Assembly: GCF_008124625.1 (NCBI RefSeq)
Contig: NZ_VNHM01000006.1
Span: 1 to 64,000 of the forward strand
Direction of reading: 5' to 3'
Length of the DNA stretch: 64,000 nucleotides
From: Desulfallas thermosapovorans DSM 6562
GTDB lineage: Bacteria; Bacillota; Desulfotomaculia; Desulfotomaculales; Desulfallaceae
This document shows, in pieces, positions 54,952 through 61,816 of the stretch; position 1 is the first letter of the stretch; the number at the start of each line of letters is the position of its first letter. A program made the translations under genes and the position numbers. A model generated the notes under the pieces. That model was not told the origin of the DNA and searched no databases. It saw only the letters and a program-made list of their open reading frames with translations.

Positions 54952-56466
54952 GTGATATCTAAACTTCAATCACTAAAAAACCAGTTGGTTGTCATAGTGT
55001 TGATAGCTTTACTATTACCCTCAGCAACAATGCTCTATGATATATACTATGCATCCAAGTCGGACGAGGTATTACTGGCCGAAACCGAAAATAAACTGGA
55101 ACAGATAACCAACCTGGTGGCAAGCGAGATATATAATCAATTGGATAAAGAGGGAAAAGCATATAATGATGAAGAATTGGTCAGAGTTTTCAAATCGGTG
55201 GCGGTACCCCTGACCACCAGCAATTACCCCGGTGTTCGCCTGGGCCTGTATCTAACCGACAGCGCCCAAATAACCATTGAAGGTTACCTGCACGAGTTCG
55301 GCGAGCGGCTACCCGAAGAAAAACACCAGCGGGACCGGCGCATATACAATGAGGCCAAAGAAGGCATCGCTGCTGTACAGGCCAGTGGCACCCCCATTAC
55401 CCGGCTGGGCAACACCTGGGATGATCAATTCCTGGAACATCTTGTTCCCATCAAAACAAACGACCAAATGGTAGCCGTTTTGTGGGCCGAAGAGAGGATG
55501 CACCCGATTTTTGCCAAGAGCAAACACGTACGTTTAGCGGTGCGTTACGTTGTATTTACTGTTTTCGGCCTGGGTGTCTGCTTTACCTTACTAACCCTAA
55601 GCAATATGATGAACCGTGTACGCTTAATTAAAGACGGCCTGCTGCAACTACAAAAAAACTTAAATAATAAGCTGCCCGAATTACCGGGAGAAATGGGCCA
55701 GATCACCAGGGCCATCAATAAAATGGCCTGCGGGCTCATTGAAAAGGAACAGGTGATTGAGCATTACAAACGCCAGGAAGACCTCCTGGCCATGGGACGC
55801 CTGACCACTGAAATTGCCCATGAATTGCGGGCACCGGTTAGTATCATCCAGGCTACTGCCGAGGCCATGGAAGTAAGCGCCAAAGATGCGTCGGAGATGA
55901 AAGACTTTATTGACAGAATAGGGCAGCAGGTGGACCGGCACAATAAGCTGATTAATGAATTGCTTGAATTCGGACGTCCCAATCCCGGGGTGGTGGAGGT
56001 ATTTGATTTAAACGTACTGATTAACGATGTATTATCATATGTCAAACCACTGATTGAGAAAAATAATATCTTACTTGATTGTAAAAATACCGTTACGGGG
56101 CCGCTTCTTTTGGACGGTAATGCGGATAAGCTAAAACAGGTGTTTATCAATTTAATTGTCAACGCCATTGAGGCCATGGATAATGAAGGAAAGTTAACCA
56201 TTGGAATTCAAACCGAAGGGGATATGGCCGTGATAACCATCCAGGATACGGGTAAGGGCATACCTCAGGAAGACCTGGAAAACATATTTGAACCCTTTTA
56301 TACCAGGAAGGCCAAGGGTAACGGACTGGGCCTGGCCATTAGTAAACGAATCATTCAAATACATGGGGGCTCAATTAAAGTGGAAAGCAAGGCGGACAGC
56401 GGAAGCATATTTACAGTACGCCTGCCGGTACAAAATAGACACACCTCCCCGGTAGACAATAACTAA
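54952..56466 (+). CDS. Membrane sensor histidine kinase (NtrB-like)
   Basis: A 504-aa kinase: membrane helices at about residues 10-29 and 198-215, an extracytoplasmic domain of about 165 residues between them, a HAMP-like linker, HisKA with EIAHELRAPVSII, and a HATPase domain with NLIVNAIEAMD, DTGKGI and KGNGLGLAI. No regulator gene is adjacent; the nearest orphan receiver is at 59626-60033. The GTG start has AAAGGA about eleven bases upstream. It is divergent from the MetE-like gene. The signal is unknown. Confidence 0.88.
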   Translation: MISKLQSLKNQLVVIVLIALLLPSATMLYDIYYASKSDEVLLAETENKLEQITNLVASEIYNQLDKEGKAYNDEELVRVFKSVAVPLTTSNYPGVRLGLYLTDSAQITIEGYLHEFGERLPEEKHQRDRRIYNEAKEGIAAVQASGTPITRLGNTWDDQFLEHLVPIKTNDQMVAVLWAEERMHPIFAKSKHVRLAVRYVVFTVFGLGVCFTLLTLSNMMNRVRLIKDGLLQLQKNLNNKLPELPGEMGQITRAINKMACGLIEKEQVIEHYKRQEDLLAMGRLTTEIAHELRAPVSIIQATAEAMEVSAKDASEMKDFIDRIGQQVDRHNKLINELLEFGRPNPGVVEVFDLNVLINDVLSYVKPLIEKNNILLDCKNTVTGPLLLDGNADKLKQVFINLIVNAIEAMDNEGKLTIGIQTEGDMAVITIQDTGKGIPQEDLENIFEPFYTRKAKGNGLGLAISKRIIQIHGGSIKVESKADSGSIFTVRLPVQNRHTSPVDNN

Positions 56467-57095: not shown

Positions 57096-58295
57096 TTAAG
57101 CTTTAATTTGCGCCTGCTGCTCCGCTTGGCGTTTTTCACGCCTTTCCTTCATAATACCCATCGCCAGCAGGTAGAGAATATAACCGCTAATACCGCACGC
57201 CGCCGTCATAATTACCACACAGCCCACCGTGTTGATTGTATTGTATGTCTGGAAGGCCTGCCACCAGTCGGGCCGGTTGGCTACGTTCAGCATATAATGC
57301 TGCATTTGCTCCGGGTATTGCAGCATAATCTTGGCCTGGTTTCCGGTAATACCCTGGGCTGCCAGCACCTCCAGCATGCCCTTTTCATATACCTTTGAGT
57401 AGTTGGAAGCCACCTGTTTCAGCACCACCGAGGTAAAGGCAAAGAAGCACGCAATGGAGTAAACCAGGCGAATGGTGAGACCATAAACGTACTTGGTGCA
57501 AATGGTACCGAACTGGGCGCCCACAGCTGCACCGCACAGCATCAGGGTAGCTGCTGCCAGTTCCACCATCCCCTTGGCGCCGTATGTGAAACCACCGTAA
57601 GCCCCCGAGAACATTACCTCGAACAGGTCGGTGCCCACGGCTACCTTGGTGGGAACACCAACCAGGTAGATCAGGGCGGGGACCCGCAGCAGGCCGCCGC
57701 CGATACCCAGGATACCAGCTACGAAACCGGTGAAAATGCCCAGGAAAATAAGCGCCCAAACCGAGATGTGCATGCGAGCGGTTTTGCAGTAAATTACCGG
57801 CCACACGTTCAGGTTGTTTTGAATCCACCTGGACAACCTGTTACCGACCAGGTCTTTAACTTCTTTACCGGTTTCCTTTTCCATCTTCTTGGCACCGAGA
57901 TATTCCCTCAGCATAAAGAAGAACATACAGAACAGTAATACCATGTAGATGTATCGAACCACCGGCCCGGCCAGGCCTATGCTGTTCAAGAACATCAGCA
58001 CCTGGGCGCCCACCTCGACACCCGACATAGTTCCTATCAGCATGGTTAATGCAATAATCACGCTGACGTGGCCGAATCGCCAGTGCCTGAAAGTTGATAC
58101 AATGGATTTACCGGCAACGTGGGCCATATCGGTACCCACTGCATAAACCATCGGAAATCCGAAAAGGTTCAGGGCCGGTGTTACCAGCCATGCCCCGCCA
58201 AGACCGAAGTAACCACCAACAACACCTACGGTAAAACCGATTAAAACGAGCGGCCACCAAGCCATTTCCACACCGCTCATTGGCATGGTCATCAT
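57096..58295 (-). CDS. TauE/SafE family anion exporter
   Basis: A membrane protein of about 399 aa with eight or more helices. Two TauE repeats are seen: LIGFTVGVVGGYFGLGGAWLV and LGIFTGFVAGILGIGGGLLR. The family exports sulfite, sulfoacetate and similar organosulfur or oxyanions. The long middle loop and C-terminal extension match the long form seen in sulfate reducers, from memory. The ATG at 58295 has GGAGGT ten bases upstream; an ATG at 58313 overlaps the site. It is third in a three-gene unit with two tiny membrane proteins behind leader copy 1. Confidence 0.9.
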   Translation of the reverse strand: MMTMPMSGVEMAWWPLVLIGFTVGVVGGYFGLGGAWLVTPALNLFGFPMVYAVGTDMAHVAGKSIVSTFRHWRFGHVSVIIALTMLIGTMSGVEVGAQVLMFLNSIGLAGPVVRYIYMVLLFCMFFFMLREYLGAKKMEKETGKEVKDLVGNRLSRWIQNNLNVWPVIYCKTARMHISVWALIFLGIFTGFVAGILGIGGGLLRVPALIYLVGVPTKVAVGTDLFEVMFSGAYGGFTYGAKGMVELAAATLMLCGAAVGAQFGTICTKYVYGLTIRLVYSIACFFAFTSVVLKQVASNYSKVYEKGMLEVLAAQGITGNQAKIMLQYPEQMQHYMLNVANRPDWWQAFQTYNTINTVGCVVIMTAACGISGYILYLLAMGIMKERREKRQAEQQAQIKA

Positions 58296-58384
58296 ATCTA
58301 TACCCACCTCCATTTATGGCAAATTATCAACTGATTACAAACTTTCGATTATGATTTTATGACAATTGCTGAAAAAACACCCAA

Positions 58385-58585
58385 CTAGGCTTTTCCCTGC
58401 TGCTCATCAATTAAATCTTCATATTCCTTCTTGTATTCGCCGAGATGAATACCCAAAACCCTGAACAATACATCAGCTACCACAGCAAATATCGTCCCGA
58501 ACACTGCCATGTACAGTGGGACAATAAAGCCTCCTAAAATAGGATTGCTGGCCTGATAGGTATGATACCAGTCAAAAAAACCCAT
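58385..58585 (-). CDS. Small membrane protein next to the TauE gene, 66 aa
   Basis: One or two hydrophobic helices (about residues 15-45, GGFIVPLYMAVFGTIFAVVA) with an aromatic N-terminus MGFFDWYHTYQ and a charged C-terminal tail. AAAGGAGGT precedes the ATG. It is probably a partner or assembly factor of the transporter, judged from position and strand only. Confidence 0.82.
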   Translation of the reverse strand: MGFFDWYHTYQASNPILGGFIVPLYMAVFGTIFAVVADVLFRVLGIHLGEYKKEYEDLIDEQQGKA

Positions 58586-58644: not shown

Positions 58645-58740
58645 TTAGTTCAGGAATTTCAAAGTGGCCATGGTGTACAGCCAATAGCCGACACAACCAA
58701 TGCAGCTTACTACCATGAATGCCTGGGCCAGAAATTTCAT
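58645..58740 (-). CDS. Micro membrane protein, 31 aa
   Basis: After GGGAGGTGATGGTTT, an ATG opens a 31-codon frame MKFLAQAFMVVSCIGCVGYW and ending TMATLKFLN. It is a single membrane helix with a CxxC pair. The strong ribosome site and its place as first gene after the leader argue for a real protein. Likely a transporter accessory, by context. Confidence 0.75.
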   Translation of the reverse strand: MKFLAQAFMVVSCIGCVGYWLYTMATLKFLN

Positions 58741-58869
58741 AAACCATCACCTCCCTTACCGGATGTGAACGTTGGCACTTTCACAAGAATAACTTAACCT
58801 AATCTCCCCCTTTCGCTTTATCCTGGCCACCCATCATGGTAATGATGGAGGCAAAACTTTTGTGGAAAC

Positions 58870-58938
58870 AAAAATAAGCCGGGCACACCTCACCACTACT
58901 TGGTAAGAATACCCAGCTTATCGTTGTCCGATTCAGCC
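58870..58938 (-). promoter_or_regulatory. Leader hairpin plus terminator, copy 1 (upstream of the TauE unit)
   Basis: The 24-nt element (58915-58938) has outer arms GGCT/AGCT, a GA/A internal loop, inner stem ATCG/CGAT and loop GACAA. Its last four bases form the base of a terminator whose eight-pair stem joins 58912-58919 to 58876-58883, with an inner CTTACC/GGTGAG stem and a T-run (58870-58874). It starts about 20 nt after the predicted transcription start. The same element recurs at 60172, 61051 and 61217. Confidence 0.75.
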
Positions 58939-58965
58939 TTTTTATTAAATTCTTATGTTGGGACT

Positions 58966-58994
58966 ATTATACTCCCAGCAAATATCCCAGTCAA
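58966..58994 (-). promoter_or_regulatory. Sigma-A promoter of the TauE unit
   Basis: TTGACT (58989-58994), 17-bp spacer, TATAAT (58966-58971). Between the terminator and the 31-aa gene the leader also carries a small hairpin CCATCAT/ATGATGG around 58830-58847. Confidence 0.85.
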
Positions 58995-59056
58995 TAGTTT
59001 TTGTAAAATTTATCACAATTTAGTTGTAATTTTTTTATGCACTGGCTATTTTTAAA

Positions 59057-59085
59057 TTGACTAGCCTGTTTTTTCTTTCTAAAAT
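59057..59085 (+). promoter_or_regulatory. Divergent promoter for the 43-aa gene
   Basis: TTGACT (59057-59062), 17-bp spacer, TAAAAT (59080-59085), pointing away from the TauE unit. Confidence 0.7.
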
Positions 59086-59133
59086 ATATCTTGGGGGATT
59101 GTGATTAAGGATAACGGGGGGAGTGAGGCTACG

Positions 59134-59265
59134 TTGTGGGAAGATGATTACATGGAGGAAGAAAAAACCAGCCTGCTGCAGGAAATTGTTGATGTCTTCG
59201 GTATTTACGCCATCTCATTTTCATGGATCTATTTCTGCATCCATTATTACGGACCGGTATGGTGA
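59134..59265 (+). CDS. Small acidic membrane protein, 43 aa
   Basis: The frame reads WEDDYMEEEKTSLLQEIVDV, then a membrane helix rich in aromatic residues (ISFSWIYFCIHYYGPVW). The TTG at 59134 has GAGG five bases upstream; an in-frame GTG at 59101 would add eleven residues but begins about ten bases from the predicted transcription start. It has its own promoter. The acidic head plus helix is like subunit-type miniproteins. The function is unknown. Confidence 0.65.
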   Translation: MWEDDYMEEEKTSLLQEIVDVFGIYAISFSWIYFCIHYYGPVW

Positions 59266-59283
59266 TAGCTAACAACAAAAACG

Positions 59284-59324
59284 AAAAAGAAAAGCACGCT
59301 AAACTGCTATTTCCTTTTGCGTGC
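59284..59324 (-). terminator. Terminator of the receiver-DUF2292 unit
   Basis: On the minus strand GCACGC (59319-59324) pairs with GCGTGC (59294-59299), followed by TTTTCTTTTT. Confidence 0.8.
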
Positions 59325-59365
59325 GTCACACCCCTTCAAGCTACGTTGTGACTATTAACTCCATT

Positions 59366-59569
59366 TCAACGAATAATTTTGTTCCCGGGGCTTGGAGGGG
59401 TGGTATCCTTTTCACCCAACCTCAAAGTTTTAATAGCCTCGTATATTAAAACCGGCTGGCCGTTTTCAACCCTTACCCTTACTTCGCCCCATTCAAGTTG
59501 TCTTAAGAAACGGATTAATTGCTTTTCCCGGTTGGTCAGCGGTTTGGAGTTTTCGGTTCTTGAGGGCAT
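59366..59569 (-). CDS. DUF2292/YezD family protein (copy C)
   Basis: A 67-aa protein with the family core NREKQLIRFLRQLEWGEVRV and RVENGQPVLIYEAIKTLRL. It is about 85 percent identical by eye to the copy at 60337 over the core. The family is small, soluble and often found near sulfur-assimilation genes in Bacilli; the function is unknown. GGGAGGGG precedes the ATG. It follows the receiver gene by 56 bp. Confidence 0.88.
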   Translation of the reverse strand: MPSRTENSKPLTNREKQLIRFLRQLEWGEVRVRVENGQPVLIYEAIKTLRLGEKDTTPPSPGNKIIR

Positions 59570-59625
59570 AAAATCCCCTCCCGGTTAAGATGAAATTAGG
59601 ACAAAGCTACAGAACACAATGACTA

Positions 59626-60033
59626 TTAATCATGGTGATTATTCCAGGGTATAGTCTGGTCACTTTCCACAGATTCACCTGATAACAATCGCCGCACCGT
59701 TTCTCGTAAATTAGTAGTTTTAAGGGGTTTAGTCAAATAACCGGTGGCACCCCTATCCATCGCCTCCAGGGCTATGGACATGGAACTGTAACCTGTCATG
59801 ATGAGCACCGGTACATTGGAATCAATTTTACGTATTTGTTCTAAAATTTCCAACCCATTGCTTTCCGCCATCTTAATATCCAACAGTACCAGATCAACCG
59901 GGTTACTGCTAAAAATACCCAGCCCCTCATGACCACTGGTGGTTGTCATTACTTCATAACCGTCCTGGGTCAATAGTTTATCCAGCGCCCAGCACATTCC
60001 CTCTTCGTCGTCAATGATCAAAATTCTCTTCAT
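59626..60033 (-). CDS. Single-domain response regulator
   Basis: A 135-aa receiver of the NtrC type: KRILIIDDEEGMCWALDKLL with the acidic pair, phospho-Asp in LVLLDIKMAESNG, Thr in LIMTGYSS and Lys in GYLTKPLKT. There is no output domain, so it acts through another protein. AGGAGGGG precedes the ATG at 60033. It is preceded by leader copy 2 with its own promoter. The unpaired kinase at 54952 is a possible partner. Confidence 0.92.
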   Translation of the reverse strand: MKRILIIDDEEGMCWALDKLLTQDGYEVMTTTSGHEGLGIFSSNPVDLVLLDIKMAESNGLEILEQIRKIDSNVPVLIMTGYSSMSIALEAMDRGATGYLTKPLKTTNLRETVRRLLSGESVESDQTIPWNNHHD

Positions 60034-60121
60034 TTTACCCCTCCTGCCAGTCATTGTAAATATCACAACGTTGCTATCCAATTGAAGATGCCATCATTTT
60101 ATATTATCTGTATATATTTGT

Positions 60122-60195
60122 AAAAAAATAAAGGCCGGATATCCCATGATAAACAAAACATGAAAAACCCGAGCCTATCGTTGTTCGAATCAGCC
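60122..60195 (-). promoter_or_regulatory. Leader hairpin plus terminator, copy 2 (upstream of the receiver)
   Basis: The element (60172-60195) has arms GGCT/GGCT, inner TTCG/CGAT with one mismatch, and loop AACAA. It is followed by a terminator in which AGGC and CGG (60169-60176, one bulged T) pair with 60132-60138 before ATTTTTTT (60122-60128). It starts about 20 nt after the predicted transcription start. Confidence 0.72.
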
Positions 60196-60216
60196 CTGCC
60201 TATTTAAATTAATTAC

Positions 60217-60245
60217 ATATTATGATAAATTTTATAATAAGTCAA
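60217..60245 (-). promoter_or_regulatory. Promoter of the receiver-DUF2292 unit
   Basis: TTGACT (60240-60245), 17-bp spacer, TAATAT (60217-60222). Confidence 0.75.
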
Positions 60246-60247
60246 TA

Positions 60248-60267
60248 TAATTGTTCAATCAATCACA
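60248..60267. repeat. 20-bp repeat, copy 1
   Basis: TAATTGTTCAATCAATCACA lies just upstream of the -35 box of the receiver promoter. An identical copy is at 60849-60868. It contains the small dyad ATTG/CAAT. Confidence 0.8.
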
Positions 60268-60336
60268 ATCTTATATGTACAGTCATAGTTTACTGTTAAT
60301 AACTTATTATATGGACTTGTACATTACCGTCTTCAA

Positions 60337-60537
60337 TTAACCGACGCTTTTGCTGCCAGTGTTCGGTAGTGCAGCACCTGCATCCCCTAACCTTAAGGTT
60401 TTAATAGCTTCGTATATTAACACCGGCTGGCCGTTTTCAACCCTTACCCTCACTTGACCCCATTCAAGTTGTCTCAAAAAACGAATTAGTTGCTTTTCAC
60501 GATTAGTTAACGATTTAGGCTTATTATTTGGGGACAT
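60337..60537 (-). CDS. DUF2292/YezD family protein (copy B)
   Basis: A 66-aa protein with core NREKQLIRFLRQLEWGQVRV and RVENGQPVLIYEAIKTLRLG, nearly identical to copy C and clearly a recent duplicate. GGGGAGGAG precedes the ATG. It lies 98 bp after copy A on the same strand and may share its transcript. Confidence 0.88.
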   Translation of the reverse strand: MSPNNKPKSLTNREKQLIRFLRQLEWGQVRVRVENGQPVLIYEAIKTLRLGDAGAALPNTGSKSVG

Positions 60538-60635
60538 AAAAACTCCTCCCCTGCCATTATTTCTTTATTTAACCTTGAACAATAGCACACAAACACATCA
60601 TCCACTGCCCGTAAGGCCTTTAAGCATGGTGATTA

Positions 60636-60830
60636 CTAGCCATTGAAAAATGTCATGCGACCCTTTTTCCTGGGTTGCTGTATTTCCACGGGTTGTTCTT
60701 CCAACTTAAATGTCCTTATTGCTTCACATATTAATACCGGTTTTCCTTCCTCAACGCGCACATTAACCTCGCCCCAACCGAGGTCCCTAATAAATTTAAT
60801 CAATTGTTTCTCTGATTTATCTAATGGCAC
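60636..60830 (-). CDS. DUF2292/YezD family protein (copy A)
   Basis: A 64-aa, more divergent copy: DKSEKQLIKFIRDLGWGEVNV and RVEEGKPVLICEAIRTFKL, with a longer basic tail (RKKGRMTFFNG) not seen in the other two. The GTG at 60830 lies four to five bases after GGGGGGAGG; codons further upstream overlap that site. It has a good promoter at 60868-60896 and a 30-nt leader without the hairpin element. Confidence 0.85.
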   Translation of the reverse strand: MPLDKSEKQLIKFIRDLGWGEVNVRVEEGKPVLICEAIRTFKLEEQPVEIQQPRKKGRMTFFNG

Positions 60831-60848
60831 ATATCCTCCCCCCAAGTT

Positions 60849-60868
60849 TAATTGTTCAATCAATCACA
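60849..60868. repeat. 20-bp repeat, copy 2
   Basis: Identical to 60248-60267. Here it lies immediately downstream of the -10 box of the copy A promoter, covering the transcription start. Confidence 0.8.
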
Positions 60869-60896
60869 TAGTAACACCCTTCAAGCGGATGGTCAA
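60868..60896 (-). promoter_or_regulatory. Promoter of the DUF2292 copy A/B unit
   Basis: TTGACC (60891-60896), 17-bp spacer, TACTAT (60868-60873). Confidence 0.7.
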
Positions 60897-61000
60897 TATA
60901 GCCCTTGCGAAAATATGTCTATAATTAAATAAAAAACCTTATATAAATTATTTTATATTATTTTTTTTACATAACACTTTAAATTTTTTACTTGTACCTA

Positions 61001-61029
61001 TTGACACAAAGGAAAACTGGTGCTAGAAT
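61001..61029 (+). promoter_or_regulatory. Promoter of the tandem-leader unit
   Basis: TTGACA (61001-61006), 17-bp spacer, TAGAAT (61024-61029). Confidence 0.85.
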
Positions 61030-61050
61030 AATGAAAAATATCACAAACGT

Positions 61051-61103
61051 AGCCGAATCGAACAACGATAGGCTGGCAATAATCATTGTCAGCCTATTTT
61101 TTA
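61051..61103 (+). promoter_or_regulatory. Leader hairpin plus terminator, copy 3
   Basis: The element (61051-61074) has perfect arms AGCC/GGCT, inner ATCG/CGAT and loop AACAA. A strong terminator follows: 61068-61080 pairs with 61085-61097 (one wobble), then six T. The element starts about 15 nt after the predicted transcription start. Confidence 0.8.
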
Positions 61104-61216
61104 TCCTTATCGCTATCCCCCCCTGCGGTAGGATAACCGACATCATTAAGACATCATTAAGAAGATTTATCTAATGGAAAAAAAACTAAATAAACCCCCA
61201 AAGTCAGTTTAACGTT

Positions 61217-61273
61217 GGCTGAATCGAACAACGATAGGCCGGCACGTTATCCCAGCGTGCCGGCCTTAATTAT
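61217..61273 (+). promoter_or_regulatory. Leader hairpin plus terminator, copy 4 (tandem with copy 3)
   Basis: The element (61217-61240) has arms GGCT/GGCC, inner ATCG/CGAT and loop AACAA. The terminator stem AGGCCGGCACG (61236-61246) pairs perfectly with 61256-61266; the tail is only moderately T-rich. No separate promoter is seen, so copies 3 and 4 probably lie on one transcript. Between them lies an 11-bp tandem repeat GACATCATTAA (61139-61160). Confidence 0.78.
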
Positions 61274-61375
61274 TTACATCAGGGAGTTTTTGTTGCCGTT
61301 AAATTCATACCTTACGGACTTTAATGAAAAACCGCTCAATTTATAATCGATTCTTTATTAAAGGAGGGATTGTAT

Positions 61376-61816
61376 ATGTCTAGCATTTCCCACACCTACG
61401 AAAACTGTCGGGATATCGCATCTGAAGGTGCTGTTTTAAAATTTATTAAATCAATATCGACATTTTTCAGGCGCAAATCCATATCCAGGGCGGCAAGAAT
61501 CTATCACGGGGACTACTCTTATCACTCAACACATGACACGGCCTTTTGCAACTTTATGCATATGCAGAGGATAACATTCGTCGAAACGGGTGACTGCTAT
61601 GTTTATATATTTGACAAGCCCAATTACCAGGGTAGTTATATCATAGCAGGTCCCAAGGAAGTTGTTCCGGTTTGCAAATGCGGATCCATGATAATCAGCC
61701 GGAAAAAACTTCCGGTGAGCATAATACAAAACAACGGTAAACCACCAAAGGGATTATGGGAAGTAACAGGGGCCAGTTACCAATATCACTGTGCGATGGG
61801 ATACAAATATGTTTAA
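61376..61816 (+). CDS. Hypothetical protein with possible beta/gamma-crystallin-like segment, 146 aa
   Basis: The N-terminal half is helical and basic. The C-terminal half contains CYVYIFDKPNYQGSYIIAG followed by CKCGSMIISRKKLPVSI, which looks like a Greek-key strand pair of the beta/gamma-crystallin kind (pattern Y-x-x-x-x-Y/F-x-G). There is no signal peptide. AAGGAGGG lies eight bases before the ATG at 61376. It is the first gene after the two tandem leaders, so it is probably the product they control. The function is unknown. Confidence 0.7.
   Translation: MSSISHTYENCRDIASEGAVLKFIKSISTFFRRKSISRAARIYHGDYSYHSTHDTAFCNFMHMQRITFVETGDCYVYIFDKPNYQGSYIIAGPKEVVPVCKCGSMIISRKKLPVSIIQNNGKPPKGLWEVTGASYQYHCAMGYKYV

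Follow-up and report, generated by a model that had tools for sequence, protein, structure and literature searches.

We analysed the first 64,000 nucleotides (nt) of contig NZ_VNHM01000006.1 of Desulfallas thermosapovorans DSM 6562, forward strand (the window). It carries four copies of a 24-nt RNA hairpin, each overlapping an intrinsic terminator, and between them genes for very small OscA/DUF2292-like proteins. Judged from its sequence, the element is a previously uncurated RNA attenuator that would work like the ribonucleic antiterminator (RAT) targets of CAT-domain proteins and is not a member of that family. The reading that we prefer, at a probability of about 0.72, is that a protein of the DUF2292 family binds the hairpin and causes antitermination.

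An earlier note on this DNA had described four hairpins with a common fold, and all four were recovered:

58915 to 58938, minus strand: hairpin copy 1, GGCUGAAUCGGACAACGAUAAGCU
60172 to 60195, minus strand: hairpin copy 2, GGCUGAUUCGAACAACGAUAGGCU
61051 to 61074, plus strand: hairpin copy 3, AGCCGAAUCGAACAACGAUAGGCU
61217 to 61240, plus strand: hairpin copy 4, GGCUGAAUCGAACAACGAUAGGCC, in tandem with copy 3

Each copy consists of an outer stem, a GA/A internal loop, an AUCG-CGAU inner stem and an RACAA loop, with a single U-U mismatch within the inner stem of copy 2. A fifth genuine copy lies outside the window on the same contig, 16.6 kb away (G000:C6:77842-77865, minus strand), and precedes a paralog of the protein encoded after copies 3 and 4. 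A sixth match to the core, on contig C2, has neither an outer stem nor a terminator and was set aside as chance. A covariance model built from the five copies (R1) gave E-values of 1e-9 to 8e-8 in the 3-Mb source genome, values that are thus those of its own training copies, and a broader model (R2) gave 4e-8 to 7e-5. The 11-nt core alone is modestly unlikely by chance (at least four matches in 2 of 100 shuffles), and the element owes its significance to covariation and genomic distribution rather than to this core alone.

Covariance-model searches of relatives, which the earlier note had proposed, were run with R1 on 60 relatives and with R2 on the 113 genomes available for the class. R2 recovered the hairpin in 35 of the 113, at 1 to 8 copies each, usually clustered near sulfate/sulfite-type transporter genes. 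Across a set of 57 instances 95.6% of cells were paired, a value that none of 500 shuffles equalled. Two-sided changes were seen at seven of the eight base pairs, among them a swap of C-G for G-C in the inner stem, so that the compensating stem changes first noticed in the window reflect a structured RNA. In the same set, the GA/A internal loop and the greater part of the AACAA loop are nearly invariant. An exact-pattern scan of named GTDB species genomes returned 31 stretches, nearly all from Desulfotomaculum-type sulfate reducers or their relatives, the genera being Desulfofundulus, Desulfovirgula, Desulfoscipio, Desulfotruncus, Desulforamulus, Desulforudis, Ammonifex and Pelotomaculum. In a 398-genome sample of the phylum there was one strong match outside the class, at a contig end in G186; matches in G174 and G277 (E near 0.005) were treated as chance. 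The hairpin region has no match in Rfam 15 at E<=1, in line with the earlier note, which had matched it to no class. Neither of the findings that the note had named as fatal to its idea, identity with a known Rfam family or a dispersed repeat away from promoters and lacking conserved pairing, was obtained. At the Rfam gathering cut-off the whole window yielded only a T-box leader elsewhere (RF00230, 5388-5642, minus strand).

The hairpins in the window are framed by the following promoters and terminators:

58966 to 58994, minus strand: promoter TTGACT-17-TATAAT of copy 1
60217 to 60245, minus strand: promoter TTGACT-17-TAATAT of copy 2
61001 to 61029, plus strand: promoter TTGACA-17-TAGAAT of copy 3
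58869 to 58919, minus strand: intrinsic terminator 1, its 5' arm overlapping the hairpin 3' arm
60122 to 60176, minus strand: intrinsic terminator 2
61067 to 61102, plus strand: intrinsic terminator 3
61236 to 61274, plus strand: intrinsic terminator 4

The three consensus promoters predicted earlier are present at copies 1 to 3. They share the pattern TTGACN-17-NNNNAT, with the -10 box ending 21-27 nt before the hairpin; copy 4 lacks a strong promoter and stands in tandem with copy 3. Class-wide, about one copy in two is preceded by its own strong promoter, and the others often lie inside operons or in tandem. The claim that the 3' arm also serves as the terminator base extends well beyond the window: an intrinsic terminator (median -25.5 kcal/mol) follows 91 of the 95 unique copies, and in 90 of these 91 it contains all four 3'-arm bases of the outer stem. 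When the same test was applied to random sites in the same DNA, 9% passed at -12 kcal/mol and 4% at -20. Where the outer 3'-arm bases have changed, the partner base in the terminator has usually changed along with them. Since this arm is common to both structures, hairpin and terminator are mutually exclusive. In the window copies, forcing the hairpin costs 1.0-10.7 kcal/mol relative to the free fold and leaves the bases ahead of the U-tract unpaired. It follows from the exclusive folds that a protein holding the hairpin should cause read-through.

The candidate for such a protein is encoded three times among the hairpins:

59366 to 59569, minus strand: OscA/DUF2292-like protein 1, candidate RNA-binding antiterminator
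60337 to 60537, minus strand: OscA/DUF2292-like protein 2
60636 to 60830, minus strand: OscA/DUF2292-like protein 3, GTG start

By profile, these probably belong to the same family as OscA, YezD and DUF2292 (PF10055). A profile of OscA-like proteins (A4) was searched against the same 113 genomes as R2. The hairpin is present in 35, a strong OscA-like protein in 34 and both in 33 (Fisher p about 5e-25, without phylogenetic correction), which leaves two genomes with the hairpin only and one with the protein only. Eight genera contain both states, pair present and pair absent, so the co-occurrence does not reflect one deep split. One hairpin-only genome, G006, has a weak match that lies antisense within a coding sequence, which we take as chance; the other, G015, is fragmented and its copy looks genuine. 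In one family (f8) hairpin and OscA gene are on separate contigs, with no hairpin near the gene; six genomes carry both, and this unlinked co-occurrence argues against OscA being a mere member of the regulon. The oscA gene of Pseudomonas shares a transcript with the gene for a sulfate-binding protein and is tied to sulfur starvation and chromate resistance (PMC2996968, PMC3596284). We found no RNA role for DUF2292/OscA in the literature searched, and a PDB sequence search with the protein gave no significant match.

Beyond the class, the A4 profile yielded 14 further genomes and a profile termed A8 yielded more. DUF2292 genes in these other classes adjoin hairpins of the same plan with a different stem sequence, likewise fused to terminators; the inner stems are CCG/CGG, CCGG/CCGG, CCAG/CUGG, CUGG/CCAG and GCGG/CCGC and the loops AACAA, AAAA, AAGA and ACCA. 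By a fixed pattern, a same-architecture hairpin lies within 1 kb on the same strand at 13 of 22 DUF2292 loci, against an expectation of 0.03 per locus, and the control strand of the same genomes (741 kb) held 10 hairpins by chance, not one of them overlapped by a terminator. Because the pattern was drawn up after some of the 22 loci had been viewed, it is the control DNA and a converse test on viral contigs that carry weight. Pair counts at these distant loci are biased, since detection itself demands pairing, and matched control DNA was used as the test instead; an alignment of mixed stem types in which MAFFT misplaced the internal loop was kept out of the pair counts. A profile comparison whose two sides had sequences in common was likewise kept out of the evidence. 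Among the downstream genes are those for DUF4430 and S-layer proteins, a BtuF-type periplasmic binding protein and a molybdopterin oxidoreductase. Cobalamin riboswitches stand ahead of many of these loci, and in several genomes the DUF2292 gene is near one (L173, L174, L179, L181, L182, L188 and L192), so that a riboswitch may set the amount of the proposed antiterminator.

In the converse test, viral contigs were scanned by RNA patterns alone. A DUF2292 gene was found upstream on the same strand, about 50-1220 nt away, in 8 of 12 stretches of the CCGG/CCAG type, all with a terminator; the independent count is about six of these 8, because at least two (L271, L277) repeat known loci and certain contigs are close to identical. 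Late regulators (phrog_36), the terminase small subunit and a portal protein are among the products of the genes downstream. A search of viral contigs for the strict sulfur-type hairpin gave no match, and tblastn for DUF2292 returned nothing in plasmids or annotated phages. The source genome has a fourth, prophage-like DUF2292 paralog (G000:C9:101551-101691; L227:2552-2692, minus strand), and a hairpin with a CCAG-AAAA-CUGG inner stem and a terminator lies between it and phage terminase genes (L227, about 2503, minus strand). This pair differs from the sulfur-type one in both stem and loop, so that two distinct DUF2292-hairpin pairs coexist in one genome. No gene other than DUF2292 was seen to be shared by the sulfur, cobalamin, molybdopterin and phage contexts. 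These patterns lead us to consider it quite probable that DUF2292 (YezD/OscA) proteins are widespread RNA-binding antiterminators of very small size whose cognate hairpins are built to one plan, acting in bacterial sulfur, cobalamin and molybdopterin-enzyme operons and on phage late genes, with distinct pairs coexisting in one cell.

The proposed unit runs from promoter to 24-nt hairpin to overlapping intrinsic terminator to gene. By default the terminator would form and capture the hairpin 3' arm (5'-AGGCY). A DUF2292/OscA-like protein, probably oligomeric, would recognise the hairpin through the GA/A internal loop and the A-rich A..A loop and keep it closed; the terminator would then lose its lowest base pairs beside the U-tract and polymerase would read through. 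In the sulfate-reducing class the targets would be transporter operons (TauE/TSUP, DASS), the receiver protein and accessory genes, and control of the OscA genes themselves would amount to positive feedback. A linked sensor kinase and receiver-only regulator probably set OscA activity in many genomes. With other stems, the same module may serve other bacteria, where it often follows a cobalamin riboswitch, and phages, where it would precede late genes. The hairpin, its covariation, its overlap with the terminator and its co-occurrence and co-localisation with the protein gene are seen in the sequences; protein binding, the direction of the effect, the oligomeric state and the input signal (kinase/receiver, sulfur status) are in this scheme what we infer.

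Several observations weigh against this proposal. The OscA-like proteins of the window score 14-16 bits against PF10055, below its cut-off of 22, whereas several profile-linked relatives in other classes and phages score 24-47 bits, above it, and are clear members of DUF2292. OscA-like proteins carry an average net charge of +3 and weakly basic tails, and AlphaFold models are of low confidence, too poor for a fold search or for recognising an RNA-binding fold. The hairpin is present and OscA was not found in two fragmented metagenome-assembled genomes, G015 and G186; conversely, G070, the genome with the protein only, has three OscA genes and no hairpin on its short contig. Nine of the 22 distant loci have no hairpin within 1 kb by the fixed pattern, and the five viral stretches of the CCG-AACAA type have no DUF2292 gene on the available stretch. 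The unlinked co-occurrence in f8 may represent one or two independent events only, and OscA may belong to the regulon without being its regulator.

This last point leads to the most substantial competing explanation, namely that the leader is an attenuator under another trans-acting factor, such as the linked receiver or kinase, an ANTAR protein or an unlinked factor, with OscA/DUF2292 merely a controlled gene. OscA genes do lie downstream of 22 of the 95 hairpins, and ANTAR proteins occur in all 33 genomes that share hairpin and OscA. However, the sensor kinase is missing from the hairpin-bearing families f7, f8 and f13 and was rejected as a universal partner. ANTAR proteins are equally common where there is no hairpin (19 of 20 genomes), a lack of specificity for which they were rejected, and the RNA that they are known to bind is made of two hairpins with loops of six nucleotides (PMC3369931). 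With an OscA gene in f8 that co-occurs without a hairpin of its own, and DUF2292 the sole gene seen in all the contexts named above, we regard control by another factor as rather unlikely. DUF2292 might instead bind the hairpin and repress, by stabilising termination or by blocking ribosomes or processing. The direction is not readable from sequence and binding might nucleate a larger, termination-prone structure, but hairpin and terminator base use the same bases in nearly all copies, so that a closed hairpin must weaken the terminator, and the genes lie past the terminator, often with a promoter of their own ahead of it. Repression therefore seems improbable to us.

A small-molecule riboswitch, in which the hairpin directly senses a sulfur or redox metabolite, would suit the sulfur-transport flavour of the regulon and the riboswitch-like layout of leader and terminator. 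Yet two short stems and a 3-nt internal loop leave little room for a ligand pocket, the inner stem varies freely with compensation, and a protein family accompanies the RNA through metabolic and phage settings that are otherwise unrelated; this makes a riboswitch very improbable. We give almost no credence to ordinary terminators or a dispersed repeat with flanking-stem similarity by chance: the element is short and multi-copy, but its flanks differ, its stem covaries and its copies keep to one set of gene families, and control DNA held no hairpin-terminator units. Covariation and distribution contradict this explanation. A further idea would add to antitermination by DUF2292 rather than replace it. 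Decoy RNAs that titrate the protein have been reported for ANTAR systems, and in one family strong promoter-hairpin-terminator units have no annotated gene or long open reading frame (ORF) close downstream on the same strand (L123 7637, L124 7017, L126 6681). Most units do precede a gene and small ORFs may follow the rest, and we hold a decoy role for gene-less units to be possible, if on the doubtful side.

The arrangement resembles several known antitermination systems. Like the RAT of BglG, SacY and LicT, it has one small imperfect hairpin with an internal loop that overlaps the 5' part of the terminator and whose stabilisation by protein would give read-through. The RAT hairpin is 29-30 nt long (PMC3369931) and that described here 24 nt; the candidate partner belongs to a different family, of 45-75 residues, and there is no phosphotransferase-system sugar context. 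The parallel with BglG/SacY drawn in the earlier note did not hold as to the partner: a CAT domain (PF03123) occurs in none of the 33 shared genomes, the control search being positive in E. coli and B. subtilis, and this partner was rejected. ANTAR systems (EutV, NasR, AmiR) are alike in a leader hairpin overlapping the terminator, several terminators per regulon and a linked two-component system. They require two hairpins with hexanucleotide loops bearing A at position 1 and G at position 4 (PMC3369931), whereas here there is a single hairpin with a 4-5 nt A..A loop and the linked regulator is receiver-only, without an ANTAR domain. LoaP/dfn likewise needs a small leader hairpin for read-through of a downstream terminator, but the dfn hairpin has a UNCG tetraloop, binds a NusG paralog and stands apart from the terminator (PMC12691694); most copies of the present element have an AACAA loop, and the hairpin shares bases with the terminator.

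Our proposal gives a candidate molecular function to DUF2292, including OscA with its links to sulfur starvation and chromate resistance, and suggests how sulfate reducers may regulate putative sulfate transporters (TSUP, DASS). If true, it would add a third antiterminator principle beside CAT and ANTAR. With a protein of about 45-75 residues, an RNA of about 22-24 nt and several stem variants, the pair could make a compact, possibly orthogonal control part.

The window contains further genes of interest around the hairpins:

58645 to 58740, minus strand: 31-residue small ORF, MKFLAQAFMVVSCIGCVGYWLYTMATLKFLN, first ORF past terminator 1
58385 to 58585, minus strand: 66-residue membrane protein, weak DVU0150-family match, conserved ahead of TauE
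57096 to 58313, minus strand: TauE/SafE (TSUP) permease, distal gene of the hairpin-1 operon
59626 to 60033, minus strand: receiver-only response regulator, downstream of hairpin 2
54952 to 56466, plus strand: sensor histidine kinase, conserved at many but not all hairpin loci
61376 to 61816, plus strand: 146-residue protein, beta/gamma-crystallin-like by eye, after tandem hairpins 3 and 4

The 31-residue ORF, first in the TauE operon, is hydrophobic and has a good ribosome site. Class-wide, the genes behind hairpins encode OscA-like proteins, TauE/TSUP permeases with a 66- or 236-residue partner, DASS permeases, crystallin-like, universal stress and CBS proteins, and kinases or receivers; in sulfate reducers the TSUP and DASS families are putative transporters of sulfate (PMC5840216). 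Family f8 differs: its hairpin stands ahead of a formate/nitrite-family transporter gene and NuoE/NuoF-like genes, as a single copy 390-710 nt before the transporter gene (L130 7028, L054 7031 and relatives), and the genome carries an orphan OscA gene at another place. Of the single regulon that the earlier note had placed at this locus, the clustering of copies before related operons stands; f8 and the other contexts show that the hairpin is bound neither to the locus nor to sulfur genes. The 146-residue protein has no Pfam match, its crystallin likeness being our own reading, and a crystallin-like family of about this size is found repeatedly behind hairpins, another example being L006 751-1191 (minus strand).

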